In this document: positions 24,794 through 29,611 of the stretch, one piece after another | Layout: each line of letters opens with the position of its first letter | Position numbering within the stretch: the stretch's first letter is position 1 | IMG/VR virus record: IMGVR_UViG_3300030419_006105 | Location: 52,367-116,366 of that record | Reading direction: 5' to 3' (one strand) | From: a virus | DNA length: 64,000 nt | Program-made: the position numbers and the translations under genes | The notes under the pieces: generated by a model | Database searches by the model: none | What the model saw: the letters and a program-made list of their open reading frames with translations, nothing else | What the model was told of the DNA's origin: nothing

Positions 24794-26500
24794 ATGCCGA
24801 GACAAAAAAAGGAAGATAAATTTTATTTAGGCAATAAAAATTTACCTAACGCCAATATGGAGTTTGAATGGACTCCGGAAATGGTTAAAAATTTAAAAAA
24901 GGCAAAACAAAATATATTACATTTTGCAGAGAATTATTTTTATATTGTTAACCTAGATCAAGGTAAAATAAAAATAGACTTATATCCTTGTCAAAAAAGA
25001 GTTTTACGTAGTTTAAGAGATAATAGATTTGTAGCATGTCTTGCATCAAGACAAACTGGTAAAACTACAATGATGACAATCTACGCACTTTGGATTGCAT
25101 GCTTTCAAGAAGATCAACGTATATTAATTGTTGCTAACAAAGAACAAACAGCTATTAATATATTTTCAAGAATTAGAACTGCGTATGAAAAAATACCTAA
25201 CTTTTTAAAACCTGGTGTATTAGAATATGGTAAAACTTCTATGAAATTAGCTAATGGTAGTAGTATTGGTATTAGTACTACTAGCTCGGATGCTGGTCGT
25301 GGTGAATCTGTAAATGTATTAATTCTAGACGAGCTTGCATTTATTCCAAACAATTTAGTAGATAGTTTTTGGAAATCTGTATACCCTATTATTTCAAGTT
25401 CGAAAAAATCTAAAATATTTGTAGCTTCAACCCCTAACGGAAGCAATAATTTATTTTTCCATTTATATAATGATGCTATTAATGGAAAGAGTAATTGGAG
25501 AGGAGAAAAAATATTATGGGATGAAATACCTGGTCGTGATGAACAGTGGAAGCAAGATACTATTCGATCTATAGGTAGTGAAGAAGCTTTTGCGCAAGAG
25601 TTTGAATGTAAGTTTCTTGATACCGGTGACTCTTTTATTGATGAAGTTTTTTATGCTAAGCTTCAAAGTCAGACAAGGGATCCAAAACATCTATTTGAAG
25701 ATGGTTGTTATAGTGTATGGGAAGAGCCAAATAAAGAACATTTATATACAATAGGTGTTGATGTCGCAGAAGGTGTACAACAAAATTATAGTGCTATACA
25801 AGTTTTAGATATCACAGATTTACAAAATATAAATCAAGTAGCTGAGTACGCTAGTAATGAAATTAATCCATTTGAGTTTACCACTAAAGTTAGAGACATT
25901 TGCTATCACTGGGGAACTCCTCCAGTTTGTATAGAAAGAAATAATTGTGGTAGCCAAGTGGTAGATAATTTATATCATCAATACAATTATAGACATATTG
26001 TAAATTACTCACCTAAAGTCGGTCAAGTAAAATATGATAGATTAGGAATTTATGCACATACTAATACCAAATATAAAGGTATTACTAATATGAGATACTG
26101 GGTGAACGAACTCAAATGTGTACGGTTAAATTCTAAACCCGCTGTAGAAGAACTTAAGAATTTCGTAAGATATCCTAATGGTTCTTGGGCAGCACAACCA
26201 GGTTATGATTTTGATGACCGAGTTATGTCATTAGTATGGGCATTATTAATTTTAGAAAATACCGTAGTACAAAGATATTATAATGTAATGGAAATAGATG
26301 ACAACCAACGTCCTGCAAAACTAGAATTAGGAGATTATATAGATCAGAAATTTAGCAATTTCTTACAAGATCATAGAATGCAAAATATAGATGATAGCTG
26401 GAATCCTAATCCAGTTTACTTTGAAGACATAAATATTTTAGGACAGGAAGGTCCAACAGATATAGAAGCATTAGAAGCAGAAGGTTGGTCTAAATTATGA
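24794..26500 (+). CDS. 17: Terminase large subunit (gp17)
   Basis: DNA-packaging motor; 568 aa against 610 in T4. ATPase Walker A SRQTGKTT (about 86-93), Walker B LILDELAF (about 176-183), coupling motif STPNG, and a C-terminal RNase H-like nuclease with GVDVAEG (about 320) and a late FDDRVMSL acidic motif. The start at 24794 is fixed by the 14-bp gap and late box. The small subunit candidate is not adjacent but at 40740-41213. Stop overlaps the next ATG (ATGA). Confidence 0.96.
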   Translation: MPRQKKEDKFYLGNKNLPNANMEFEWTPEMVKNLKKAKQNILHFAENYFYIVNLDQGKIKIDLYPCQKRVLRSLRDNRFVACLASRQTGKTTMMTIYALWIACFQEDQRILIVANKEQTAINIFSRIRTAYEKIPNFLKPGVLEYGKTSMKLANGSSIGISTTSSDAGRGESVNVLILDELAFIPNNLVDSFWKSVYPIISSSKKSKIFVASTPNGSNNLFFHLYNDAINGKSNWRGEKILWDEIPGRDEQWKQDTIRSIGSEEAFAQEFECKFLDTGDSFIDEVFYAKLQSQTRDPKHLFEDGCYSVWEEPNKEHLYTIGVDVAEGVQQNYSAIQVLDITDLQNINQVAEYASNEINPFEFTTKVRDICYHWGTPPVCIERNNCGSQVVDNLYHQYNYRHIVNYSPKVGQVKYDRLGIYAHTNTKYKGITNMRYWVNELKCVRLNSKPAVEELKNFVRYPNGSWAAQPGYDFDDRVMSLVWALLILENTVVQRYYNVMEIDDNQRPAKLELGDYIDQKFSNFLQDHRMQNIDDSWNPNPVYFEDINILGQEGPTDIEALEAEGWSKL

Positions 26501-27081
26501 ATCAAGCACCACTTAATAAAAATAGACAAGATAAATTTATCTTAGTTTTAAACTTACCTGAAGGTATAAAAGAAATTTCTGACAGGTATAGTAGAAACAA
26601 TAATCGAATAAACGCAAACAGTCTTGAAATTAGTATCGCAGGAACAGTGACACCTAATATTAGTGTACCAGAGCAAACATTACCATATGGATCGCAAAGT
26701 ATTAAAATTAGTTCACATGCACGACCTGCTTACAGTTCATTAAATTTAAATTTTAAGATAGATAACGAGTATAACAATTACTGGGCTATATTTAAATGGT
26801 TAGATGTAATTAACGACGTAAGAGAAGGAACGGTTAATGAAGATGAAATTGTAAAATATCATCAACCAGGAAAAGTGTTACCAATTTATTCTTCTAATTT
26901 AACCGTTTACGGTTTAGATGAATATCATAATAGAAAAATACAATGGGATTATATCGGAGCTTTCCCGACTCAGCTTTCTGAGATTCAATGGAATTATAAC
27001 GACTCACAGGAAATAGGAGCAACCGCAACATTTGAATTTACAAGGTTAGAAGCAAAATTATTAGACTCTGACGGTAATTAA
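26497..27081 (+). CDS. Tail-tube-like (gp19 fold) protein, extra copy
   Basis: 194 aa, nearly the size of the gp19-like tube protein at 32264 (196 aa). Similar layout: an N-terminal strand, a SLEISIAGTVTP segment, a central PGKVLPIYSS region, and a C-terminal DYIGAFPTQLSEIQWNYNDS...TATFEFTRLE that mirrors the tube protein's LYGVFPVNSGDISYTISGS...TTITMAYQFF. Likely a paralogue adapted for the neck, the tube end or a virion connector. Follows terminase by 4-bp overlap and its stop shares TTAA with the opposing gene's stop. Confidence 0.6.
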   Translation: MNQAPLNKNRQDKFILVLNLPEGIKEISDRYSRNNNRINANSLEISIAGTVTPNISVPEQTLPYGSQSIKISSHARPAYSSLNLNFKIDNEYNNYWAIFKWLDVINDVREGTVNEDEIVKYHQPGKVLPIYSSNLTVYGLDEYHNRKIQWDYIGAFPTQLSEIQWNYNDSQEIGATATFEFTRLEAKLLDSDGN

Positions 27082-28322
27082 ACAATATTTAATTCTCCTG
27101 TTGAATCTCCAAAATGTTTCATATCTATATTATGTTTATGTAATATACTAACAAACAAATCACACATTGGTTTTTCTTTTTTAACTCTAAAATGTTTTCC
27201 GTTTTGTTTGTTACCAACTAACATAAAAGGTAACTCATCATGATTATGTCTATTACCATCTGAAATACCAGCACCATATATTATATCTGTATTTTCTAAC
27301 AAATTATCTTTTTTCATTTTAGAAATAAATTCAGAAAATAATCGTACATTAAATAGATCAATTTTTGCAAGTGCTGCTAATTTCTTAGGATCTTTTTGAT
27401 GGTGAGATAAGCTATGATGACCTTCTCTAATTCCTATTTCTTTAAACGGACCATTATAACCATCATGAGCCGTCAAAAATGTTATAACTCTAGACGTATC
27501 AGTTAAGAAAGCTAAATGCATCAAATTATACATAATTCTAAATTTATCTGATTTACTTTCTATATCAAAATTAAGTTCAAAATTATTAGTTAAATTAAAT
27601 TTATCTCTTCTCTCTAATTCTAACTCTACCTCTCTAACTGAGTACATATATTCTTCTAATTTAACTTTATCAGCATCTGAGGCAATTTTTGCCAAACTCT
27701 TACTTTCTTCTAAAACAAAATCTAAAATTGACTTTTTTCTTAATTTTACTTTTTGCTCGAGCTTAGTGACATTAAAAAGTCTATTAAAAATATCTCTAGG
27801 ATTATACATCGCAGCAAGTGGTTGATTAGCAGACTTCCATGATAAATTATACTGATAAGCACAACTATATCCTGAATCACATTTACCTATTAATCTAGAC
27901 TTATCACCACTAAATTGTAAACTATCAAACCTTGTTAAACCATTATACTTGTCAGCTAAATATTGATCAACAGATTTACCCGATCTAATTTTAGATTCAT
28001 GCTTATGGGCTTGTATTCCAGTCAAAAAAGTAGAAGCTGCTCTAGCATGGTCACCTGCCCCGTCTCCATTAGCACGTGCTTTATCATGAGTAAGACCAGA
28101 AATTATAGATGTATAATCCATATGGTCTTGCATAGGAGATAAACTATCAGGCATATTCATTATATCTCCATAATGCTTAGGAGTCCAATGATGCATGTTT
28201 ATACCATTAGGTACATAAACAACTCCTAATCGCTTTATATTAGTATTAGTAGTACCGAAGCATTCCAAGCCTGGTAATGCAAATGACAATCCCAATGTAC
28301 CTATAAACGCTCTCCTATCCAT
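27078..28322 (-). CDS. HXXSHH/DUF1552-family protein with Tat-like signal
   Basis: 414 aa. N-terminus MDRRAFIGTLGLSFALPGLE has a twin-Arg plus hydrophobic stretch, like the Tat leader of bacterial DUF1552 proteins. Then come VYVPNGINMHHW (35-46), GDHARAASTFLTG (90-102), SVDQYLA, CDSGYSCAYQ (148-157), the name-giving HSLSHH (303-308) and AGISDGNRHNHDELP (351-365). This family (PF07586) is common in Planctomycetes and related phyla; it is distantly like alkaline phosphatase-type enzymes and has no proven reaction to my knowledge. A perfect TATAAATA ends 3 nt (core TAAATA 5 nt) before the ATG, so it is a late gene. All key motifs look intact. Very unusual for a T4-like phage. Confidence 0.85.
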   Translation of the reverse strand: MDRRAFIGTLGLSFALPGLECFGTTNTNIKRLGVVYVPNGINMHHWTPKHYGDIMNMPDSLSPMQDHMDYTSIISGLTHDKARANGDGAGDHARAASTFLTGIQAHKHESKIRSGKSVDQYLADKYNGLTRFDSLQFSGDKSRLIGKCDSGYSCAYQYNLSWKSANQPLAAMYNPRDIFNRLFNVTKLEQKVKLRKKSILDFVLEESKSLAKIASDADKVKLEEYMYSVREVELELERRDKFNLTNNFELNFDIESKSDKFRIMYNLMHLAFLTDTSRVITFLTAHDGYNGPFKEIGIREGHHSLSHHQKDPKKLAALAKIDLFNVRLFSEFISKMKKDNLLENTDIIYGAGISDGNRHNHDELPFMLVGNKQNGKHFRVKKEKPMCDLFVSILHKHNIDMKHFGDSTGELNIV

Positions 28323-28335
28323 AGAAGTATTTATA
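28323..28335 (-). promoter_or_regulatory. Perfect TATAAATA late promoter before the HXXSHH gene
   Basis: Minus strand: TATAAATA (28335-28328; the TAAATA core is 28333-28328 read on the minus strand) followed by 5 nt and the ATG at 28322. It overlaps the stop codon of the 28-aa membrane peptide. Confidence 0.65.
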
Positions 28336-28417
28336 ATTTAGAAAGTATTGCTACTAGGGTAACTACGACAACAATAATAATTGTTATTTTAAGATCTTCC
28401 TCAGGAAACCATTTCAT
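28331..28417 (-). CDS. 28-aa membrane micropeptide
   Basis: MKWFPEEDLKI followed by about 15 hydrophobic residues (Ile/Val/Leu/Ala) and SKL: one transmembrane helix with an acidic N-terminal end. It overlaps the 32-aa peptide by 4 bp (ATGA) and ends 8 nt before the HXXSHH gene. Both overlap and reading-frame quality argue that it is real. Possible roles: small subunit of a membrane complex with its neighbours, or a lysis peptide; not decidable here. Confidence 0.55.
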   Translation of the reverse strand: MKWFPEEDLKITIIIVVVVTLVAILSKL

Positions 28418-28512
28418 GATAGGTACTTACCAACAATTATACCATTTACTATAGCAATAATAAGTATAACTACTACCCACGCGTATTTCTGTTTTTTATT
28501 AAGTGTCGCCAT
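28414..28512 (-). CDS. 32-aa membrane micropeptide
   Basis: MATLNKKQKYAW followed by a 16-18 residue hydrophobic helix (Val/Ile/Leu/Ala) and GKYLS. Basic N-terminus and single helix predict N-in topology. Starts inside the ferredoxin gene's last codons (14-bp overlap) and stops in the start codon of the 28-aa peptide. The four-gene chain ferredoxin, TM32, TM28, HXXSHH is therefore translationally linked. Confidence 0.55.
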   Translation of the reverse strand: MATLNKKQKYAWVVVILIIAIVNGIIVGKYLS

Positions 28513-28735
28513 CATTACCTATTGCTTCTACTGGACATCCATCCATTGCTTGTTTACACATTTCCTCTTCTTCCTCATTTTCCGGTTGCTTATATACATA
28601 AGAGTACCCTTCCTCTTCTTGACGTGTAAAATTATCGGGAGCTTCTTCTCTACATAAATCACAATCTATACACTCTTCATCCACATAATACCTACCTGGT
28701 GTATTTTCAGGTTGTTTGTGTTCTTTATCTGGCAT
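28499..28735 (-). CDS. Single-cluster 4Fe-4S ferredoxin
   Basis: 78 aa. C22-xx-C25-xx-C28 in CIDCDLC and C66-P in GCPVEAI bind one cubane cluster; Cys60 is an extra. GYSYVYKQPENEEEEE is a strongly conserved-looking middle that, by memory, is typical of ferredoxins from Verrucomicrobia and relatives. An electron carrier of low potential in the cytoplasm. A late box TAAATA (minus, 28747-28742) ends 6 nt before its ATG and lies in the end of the rmlA gene. It leads the cassette with two membrane peptides and the HXXSHH protein, with which it may work; it could equally feed phage or host reductases. Confidence 0.88.
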   Translation of the reverse strand: MPDKEHKQPENTPGRYYVDEECIDCDLCREEAPDNFTRQEEEGYSYVYKQPENEEEEEMCKQAMDGCPVEAIGNDGDT

Positions 28736-28747
28736 TTTAAATATTTA
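28736..28747 (-). promoter_or_regulatory. Late box before ferredoxin
   Basis: Minus-strand TAAATA at 28747-28742, 6 nt before the ATG at 28735, overlapping the end of rmlA. Confidence 0.6.
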
Positions 28748-29611
28748 GTCGAAACAATAACTCATTACTAAATTAGTTTTATATGAGCAATGAGGCATTC
28801 TATCTTTAATTTTTATAAATTCATCGTGTGTAATAAACCCTTGCTTATATGCCTCTCCTTCAATACAACCAATCATTGTATTAGTTCTATCTTGTATAGA
28901 TTTGACATACATAGATGCAGCAAACATTTCATCTGGATTTCCAGTATCAAACCAGGCATAATTACTATTTAACATATTATGTCCTAATACGTTATCATTT
29001 AAATAACTCTTATTTAAATCTGTAATTTCTAGTTCACCTCGCGCCGATGGTTTAAGTGCTCTAGCTCTTTTTCCAGCTGTATTATCATAAAAATAAATAC
29101 CAGTTACAGCATAATTACTCATTGGTGTATCTGGTTTTTCTTCAATAGAAATAACATCTCCATACGGGTTTAATTCAATTACACCATATTCAGATGGATT
29201 TGACACTTTATAACTTACAACACAAGCTTTATTTCCATTAATTGTAGGTTTTTTTATACCAGTAAAAATATTATCTCCAAGAACTAAGCATACATTATCA
29301 TCTCCTTGCCATTCTTCGGCTATAATGAGCGCTTCGGCTATACCTTTAGGTGATGGTTGTACTTTAAAAGTGAAATTAATTCCTAAGTATGGTTTATGTT
29401 TTCCATCAGCTTGATTAAACATTGTTAATAAATGAGGATAAGATATACCATTAGTAATAATCATTATATCTTTAATGCCTAATTTTATAAGAGTAGATAG
29501 AGGATAATAAATTGTAGGTTTATCATAAATCGGTAAAAGCTGCTTAGAAACTGTTTTTGTACTTGGATAAACTCTGGACCCAGTACCGCCGGCTAAAATG
29601 ATACCCTTCAT
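28745..29611 (-). CDS. rmlA: Glucose-1-phosphate thymidylyltransferase (RmlA)
   Basis: 288 aa, typical RmlA length. Nucleotide-binding GGTGSR (8-13) and the K-QLLP-YDKPTIYYPLS segment (about 22-39), VLGDNIF (Asp for metal) and EEKP are all in place. It makes dTDP-glucose, the substrate of RmlB at 17596. RmlA sits 10 kb away from RmlB/RmlD on the other strand. Upstream on the minus strand TTGAAT, 15 nt, TATAAT (29625-29620) and an overlapping TATAAATA (29620-29613) suggest both early and late expression. Confidence 0.93.
   Translation of the reverse strand: MKGIILAGGTGSRVYPSTKTVSKQLLPIYDKPTIYYPLSTLIKLGIKDIMIITNGISYPHLLTMFNQADGKHKPYLGINFTFKVQPSPKGIAEALIIAEEWQGDDNVCLVLGDNIFTGIKKPTINGNKACVVSYKVSNPSEYGVIELNPYGDVISIEEKPDTPMSNYAVTGIYFYDNTAGKRARALKPSARGELEITDLNKSYLNDNVLGHNMLNSNYAWFDTGNPDEMFAASMYVKSIQDRTNTMIGCIEGEAYKQGFITHDEFIKIKDRMPHCSYKTNLVMSYCFD

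Follow-up and report, generated by a model that had tools for sequence, protein, structure and literature searches.

The four minus-strand open reading frames (ORFs) between an rfbA-like gene and the convergent gene 19 of this virus are probably independent passengers that co-reside in a recombinational slot. They encode a ferredoxin (Fd), two single-helix peptides (p32 and p28) and an HXXSHH (DUF1552) protein (HXX), and they lie in the window (the 64,000-nucleotide stretch analyzed here), which belongs to a virus record of 116,366 bp. The preliminary description had taken them for parts of one envelope redox or hydrolytic module. Their sizes, positions and spacing were as given there (Table 1): read along the minus strand, Fd follows rfbA after 9 nt and overlaps p32 by 14 bp, p32 and p28 share an ATGA overlap, and HXX begins 8 nt further on, its stop overlapping that of gene 19 by 4 bp. 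p32 has 32 residues when counted from the second ATG and 33 from the first (28515). Each of the four genes is under purifying selection or strongly conserved, so all are used.

Table 1. Positions in the window of the slot, its borders and its cargo
Feature	Position	Strand	Evidence
gp17 terminase	24794-26500		adjoins gene 19
Gene 19 (tail tube)	26497-27081	+	phrog_45, 1.3e-17; convergent slot border
Cargo-exchange slot	27078-28744	-	from rfbA stop to gene-19 stop; same two borders in 80 loci
HXX, HXXSHH (DUF1552) protein, 414 aa	27078-28322	-	PF07586, 1.3e-80
GHHxLSHH motif of HXX (H302, H303, H307, H308)	27399-27419	-	invariant in phage and bacterial relatives
Tat-like signal sequence MDRRAFIGTLGLSFALPGLECFGTT of HXX	28248-28322	-	R3, R4, F6, G8 invariant in 17 phage proteins
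p28, 28-aa single-helix peptide MKWFPEEDLKITIIIVVVVTLVAILSKL	28331-28417	-	homologues MKWFPG(D/N)DLK...; pN/pS 0.30
p32, 32-aa single-helix peptide MATLNKKQKYAWVVVILIIAIVNGIIVGKYLS	28414-28512	-	homologues with KKQKxxW core; pN/pS 0.27-0.37
Fd, single-cluster 4Fe-4S ferredoxin, 78 aa	28499-28735	-	Fer4_13 (PF13370), 8.2e-23
CxxCxxC cluster motif of Fd (C22, C25, C28)	28652-28672	-	identical in all aligned Fd relatives
rfbA-like glucose-1-phosphate thymidylyltransferase	28745-29611	-	PF00483, 5.9e-53; upstream slot border, kept in ~80 loci

The gp17 and gp19 genes place the window phage among the T4-like phages, and it is a member of an uncultured marine group of these; the best-ranked cultured gp17 matches share 35–39% identity. 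When HXX and Fd were searched by tblastn against 50,697 GenBank phage records, zero matches were obtained; the set is thus unfamiliar in cultured phages, in agreement with the earlier remark on T4-like phages. The rfbA product matched TIGR01207 at 5.5e-90, under the curated cut-off of that model. The description of the genes as a late unit was not borne out, TATAAATA being present 15 times in the window vs. 24 expected (no enrichment). A copy of this motif located 5 nt upstream of the HXX start was weighed as a late promoter and dropped; upstream of HXX relatives it is kept only in L001. Verrucomicrobiota as host, in which Fd is 69% identical, was also dropped, since Acidobacteriota Fd reaches 70% and these are the phyla that were sampled.

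The rest of the record outside the window was examined as loci L191-L193. To the left of the window (record bases 20001-52366; L192, L193) lies a large sugar cluster with a cytidylyltransferase, a GHMP kinase and epimerase- and glycosyltransferase-like ORFs, together with a TPP enzyme, a ketopantoate hydroxymethyltransferase and three radical-SAM proteins. A QueE-like radical SAM (weak match), a PTPS/QueD-like protein and GTP cyclohydrolase I stand in a row (L193:4482-6569); they likely constitute a 7-deazaguanine pathway, perhaps for DNA modification.

The search of IMG/VR with rfbA returned 80 loci, and 80 of the fetched loci hold both rfbA and gene 19. Because several loci are overlapping pieces of one contig, the count used here is that of the 49 distinct junction sequences. 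The slot is empty in 24 of the 49, with rfbA and gene 19 separated by −48 to +25 bp. Filled slots carry 0.1–2.1 kb of cargo, in most cases starting ~10 nt past the stop codon of rfbA and running to that of gene 19; TTAAAT is common at both cargo edges, and the border sequences read TTAAAT..../....TTAAATTAATTTTGC. The cargo without HXX comprised p28; Fd and p28; Fd and p32; Fd, o61, p32 and p28; Fd and o61; or p32, o76 and Fd. HXX was found by itself, after a sulfotransferase, or as the last part of o58, p32 and HXX, of o58, Fd, p32 and HXX, and of o58, Fd, o61, p32 and HXX. Other slots held a sulfotransferase, a radical SAM/SPASM protein, a B12-radical SAM protein, or a glutaredoxin with FeS_assembly_P, the last pair (SufT/MIP18-like second gene) at L111:6889-7803. 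The first slot gene in L011, L012 and L024, o58, is a 58-aa ORF (MGDEKQKELAETIAAFEESQKMAALSGKLEAKKITVAIARANRRDGKKRPCCSVEPIK). The cargo set suggests two themes, namely Fe-S and redox functions (radical SAM, glutaredoxin, Fe-S assembly, Fd) and surface chemistry (sulfotransferase, HXX).

Near relatives differ in what they carry. Where gp19 is identical or almost so, L014 has HXX and L107 a radical SAM, L016 has HXX and L094 a sulfotransferase, and L099 has the B12-radical SAM while L100 is empty; a whole sister clade on the gp19 tree has an empty slot. On that tree 6 changes are required to explain the HXX label, vs. a mean of 6.7 for shuffled labels, and 5 to explain the Fd label; the L072 row, labelled empty, carries the p28 cargo of L071, which leaves the HXX and Fd counts unaffected. 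With conserved borders, content that differs between near relatives and an empty state, the junctions define a variable island: its borders are fixed, its content changes rapidly, and its genes turn up singly, in partial sets and in phages of other types.

The complete order Fd, p32, p28 and HXX was found in the window and, among related contigs, only in the near-identical L001 (HXX 99% identical). The relative order Fd-(o61)-p32-p28-(HXX) is kept wherever subsets co-occur, with the exception of L097 (p32-o76-Fd), and L024 resembles L011 minus Fd. These two features would also be expected if the parts were relics of an ancestral cassette (o58-Fd-o61-p32-p28-HXX) that decayed differently in each lineage with no repeated insertion. 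We consider this quite improbable. The HXX tree splits the slot copies: those of L011, L013-L017 and L024 cluster with the non-slot copies of L004, L006 and L019 (100/99), and those of the window and L001 fall outside; therefore, HXX entered or left the slot more than once. Decay would likewise not account for unrelated cargo (radical SAM, glutaredoxin, sulfotransferase) at the same borders, nor for how common the empty slot is.

We then asked of each pair of parts how often it shares a slot. The 26 distinct filled slots comprised 4 with both Fd and HXX, 6 with Fd but not HXX, 5 with HXX but not Fd and 11 with neither (Fisher p = 0.69). Of the refuting outcomes set out beforehand, separation of Fd from HXX was thus observed, and lack of conservation of the peptides was not. 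The p value was 1.0 when the slots were collapsed to 18 lineages and 0.065, short of significance, when empty slots were also counted; on long records the two genes were again independent. p28 and HXX were independent in filled slots (p = 0.67), and p32 and HXX were weakly linked (p = 0.08; 0.27 with lineages collapsed). Fd and p32 were the only linked pair: Fd is present in 7 of the 8 p32 slots (p = 0.001; p = 0.013 for collapsed lineages).

These distributions largely refute the notion of one functional envelope redox module, in which Fd electrons would pass through membrane-bound p32 and p28 to exported HXX, and which we now regard as very unlikely. It draws on the overlapping genes and their fixed order in the window and L001, and on the redox neighbor of bacterial HXX: in Acidobacteriota and many Verrucomicrobiota a PSD/PSCyt (DUF1587/1592/1588) gene with a cytochrome-c-like domain (weak match) adjoins HXX (L043-L047, L151, L153-L156, L158, L159), although it is missing beside other bacterial copies. 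The parts, however, swap separately. HXX is alone in the slots of L013-L016 and has neither Fd nor the peptides beside it in most other phage groups; p28 is the sole slot gene in L071, L078, L104 and L109; no PSD/PSCyt gene was noticed by inspection of the ORFs neighboring phage HXX; and the predicted fold of HXX matches hydrolases.

A narrower association, pairing Fd with p32 as a two-part unit (a membrane-docked ferredoxin) and leaving p28 and HXX as separate cargo, would refine the independent-passenger reading; we hold it to be possible, albeit doubtful. The linkage of the pair extends over several divergent lineages and both gene orders (window, L011, L036, L097), and the two genes overlap in the window, L001, L011 and L036. 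Yet L024 has p32 without Fd, L032 and L073 have Fd without p32, in other phage groups (L029, L031, L035, L037, L038) no p32 adjoins Fd, and the independent events are few.

In line with the preliminary description, the sequence evidence makes the two peptides real genes: both have conserved homologues in other phages and evolve under purifying selection. p32 relatives, with a KKQKxxW core and usually a NG[IV][IV][IV]GxxL C-terminus, are found in the slots of L001, L011, L012, L024, L036, L075 and L097; L106 has one outside the slot. Relatives of p28 (MKWFPGDDLKYTIIIGAVILFLIVLSKSCEYYGKYSS and the like), apart from those that occupy the slot alone, follow Fd in L073 and p32 in L075. Synonymous changes exceed replacement changes in p28 (p = 2e-8) and in p32 (p = 0.02 and 0.004). 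That both are mere open frames in a spacer is hardly credible: they are very short and matched no database family in profile searches, but they are under selection, they are kept in differing contexts, and such ORFs are rare, the whole 116-kb record containing 7 gap-filling ORFs of 20–44 aa, of which p28 and p32 are the only strongly hydrophobic ones. p28 is most likely a separate small membrane peptide that is independent of the other cargo. A different 31-aa single-helix ORF (MIENEPDYEFWTIFIIMTIVVTWIVLKNWIQ) shares an ATGA overlap with the HXX stop in L004 (9245-9340), L006, L007 and L009; beyond these, most other phage HXX genes have no tiny membrane ORF alongside.

Fd belongs to the Fer4_13 family by its profile match and its CxxCxxC...CP ligands, with C67 as the candidate fourth cluster ligand. 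Its match in the PDB is a Desulfovibrio-type ferredoxin I (1dax, E 2e-6), and its pN/pS is 0.07–0.14. In L034 FeS_assembly_P directly precedes a ferredoxin. The o61 ORF lies between Fd and p32 in L012 (7722-7907) and in the L075 slot, and after Fd in L032 (8069-8448); its C-terminus resembles that of Fd (...DGCPVEAIGNDGDA in L032 vs. ...GCPVEAIGNDGDT in the window Fd). It looks as if o61 had been inserted at the Fd stop, with the Fd 3′ end duplicated and the overlap with the start of the following gene preserved.

HXX matches PF07586 over its full length (271.8 bits vs. a cut-off of 30) and has both the H303SLSHH308 motif and a twin-arginine N-terminus. The Tat-type start proposed earlier holds up among the 17 phage proteins, and R3 and R4 are shared with bacterial relatives. 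The scan of IMG/VR yielded 26 HXX loci with 73–99% identity. They include phages in which the genes around HXX are not T4 late genes: L002 and L018 have unclassified neighbors; L003/L005 and L008/L010 have ammonium-transporter-like, PhoH and heptose adenylyltransferase-like neighbors; L004/L006 have a methyltransferase and other genes; and L019/L022 have a T4-like gp17 and a locus different from the slot. Across several unrelated phage groups HXX is 73–82% identical, which argues that it is useful during infection. Phage copies of this type are united in one clade (100/100), which a long branch separates from the bacterial copies. HXX of L170, another phage contig, groups with Acidobacteriota copies and is a separate acquisition. 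Bacterial relatives, 37–47% identical, belong to Verrucomicrobiota and Acidobacteriota. A CobW-like GTPase, of the metal chaperone type by sequence appearance, and a WD40-like gene come after HXX in two verrucomicrobial genomes (L041:11366-12880, L042:11361-12836). The DUF1552 literature consulted assigns no function. A study of freshwater Verrucomicrobia states that PSCyt genes mostly adjoin families of unknown genes and that nothing is known of what they do (PMC5615132).

AlphaFold with the 17 phage HXX sequences alone gave an unusable model (pLDDT 33.6); with bacterial relatives and L170 added to the input, pTM was 0.65 and mean pLDDT 59. When this model was compared with the PDB by Foldseek, all 50 listed matches were members of the alkaline-phosphatase superfamily (sulfatases, LtaS-type enzymes (lipoteichoic-acid synthase), phosphonate monoester hydrolase and phosphopentomutase), with a best E of 3e-4 and TM of 0.39–0.45. 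In BFVD, two matches fell below 0.001: a sulfatase and a phage DUF1501 protein. Neither sequence nor profile searches with HXX gave any match in the PDB. The agreement among the fold matches outweighs any single score, and the model is too poor to place catalytic residues. The predicted fold most likely resembles the alkaline-phosphatase superfamily, as far as this moderate-confidence model goes. Candidate metal-ligand or nucleophile residues are N39, D87, T101, H302/H303, H307/H308 and H359, all invariant, and D355, nearly so.

The slot is a known general kind of island with unusual contents. T4-like cyano- and pelagimyophages have hypervariable islands, e.g., the host recognition cluster between VrlC and gp14 (PMC7029224). 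As there, fixed core genes flank auxiliary genes that differ between near relatives, and the typical cargo includes glycan, radical-SAM and metabolic genes. In contrast, the slot described here is tiny (0–2.1 kb), and is located exactly at the rfbA and gene 19 stops, not between VrlC and gp14. Its contents also set it apart: HXXSHH, a 4Fe-4S ferredoxin and two families of micro-peptides. Phage and bacterial HXXSHH proteins are alike in their full-length PF07586 match, twin-arginine start and GHHxLxHH motif, with up to 46–47% identity, but the bacterial gene often stands beside the PSD/PSCyt cytochrome-type gene, and none was noticed beside phage copies. HXX is like the alkaline-phosphatase superfamily (sulfatases, LtaS, phosphonate monoester hydrolase) in predicted fold and unlike it in that sequence similarity to PDB members is undetectable. 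As a phage auxiliary ferredoxin, Fd can be compared with cyanophage PetF, a plant-type 2Fe-2S protein; Fd is a bacterial single 4Fe-4S form, nearest among the sampled groups to those of Verrucomicrobiota and Acidobacteriota (69–70%). PetF is present in 44 of 153 cyanophages (PMC10452541).

If the four genes are independent passengers, the slot could work as follows. The adjoining stops of two convergent conserved genes would let it take genes without harm to either border, and the conserved rfbA and gene-19 flanks would give homology for exchange between co-infecting phages. The cargo may be translated from an rfbA-led message through its overlapping or nearly touching genes. Assuming a working Tat pathway in the host, Tat would carry HXX into the periplasm or envelope. 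There it may act on envelope sugars or lipids that are sulfated or phosphorylated, as a hydrolase or transferase like those of the alkaline-phosphatase superfamily. Such a role fits because the phage also has rfbA and a glycosyltransferase and sugar-nucleotide cluster. Fd would supply single electrons in the cytoplasm to Fe-S enzymes, whether of the phage or of its host, with radical-SAM enzymes as candidates, and p32, the sole part that travels with Fd above expectation, may dock it at the membrane. Donation to phage radical-SAM enzymes was unsupported by co-occurrence: on long records radical SAM was present in 3 of 7 with Fd and 3 of 7 others, i.e., no association.

It is conceivable, if on the whole unlikely, that an exported, alkaline-phosphatase-like HXXSHH enzyme of marine phages remodels the envelope of the infected cell and that these phages have, separately, a p32-tethered membrane Fd, both delivered through the same slot. 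If true, two kinds of phage-encoded function without cultured counterpart would be shuttled through one tiny slot. These data mean that (i) HXXSHH, a function-unknown family of Verrucomicrobiota and Acidobacteriota, is now brought into phages, and its predicted superfamily makes it testable; (ii) two membrane peptide families of 28–38 aa, which ordinary gene calling would miss, show selection; and (iii) the slot is a well-bounded natural exchange site with ~50 sampled junction states, at which gain and loss of cargo can be studied directly because empty and filled states exist beside near-identical neighbor genes.
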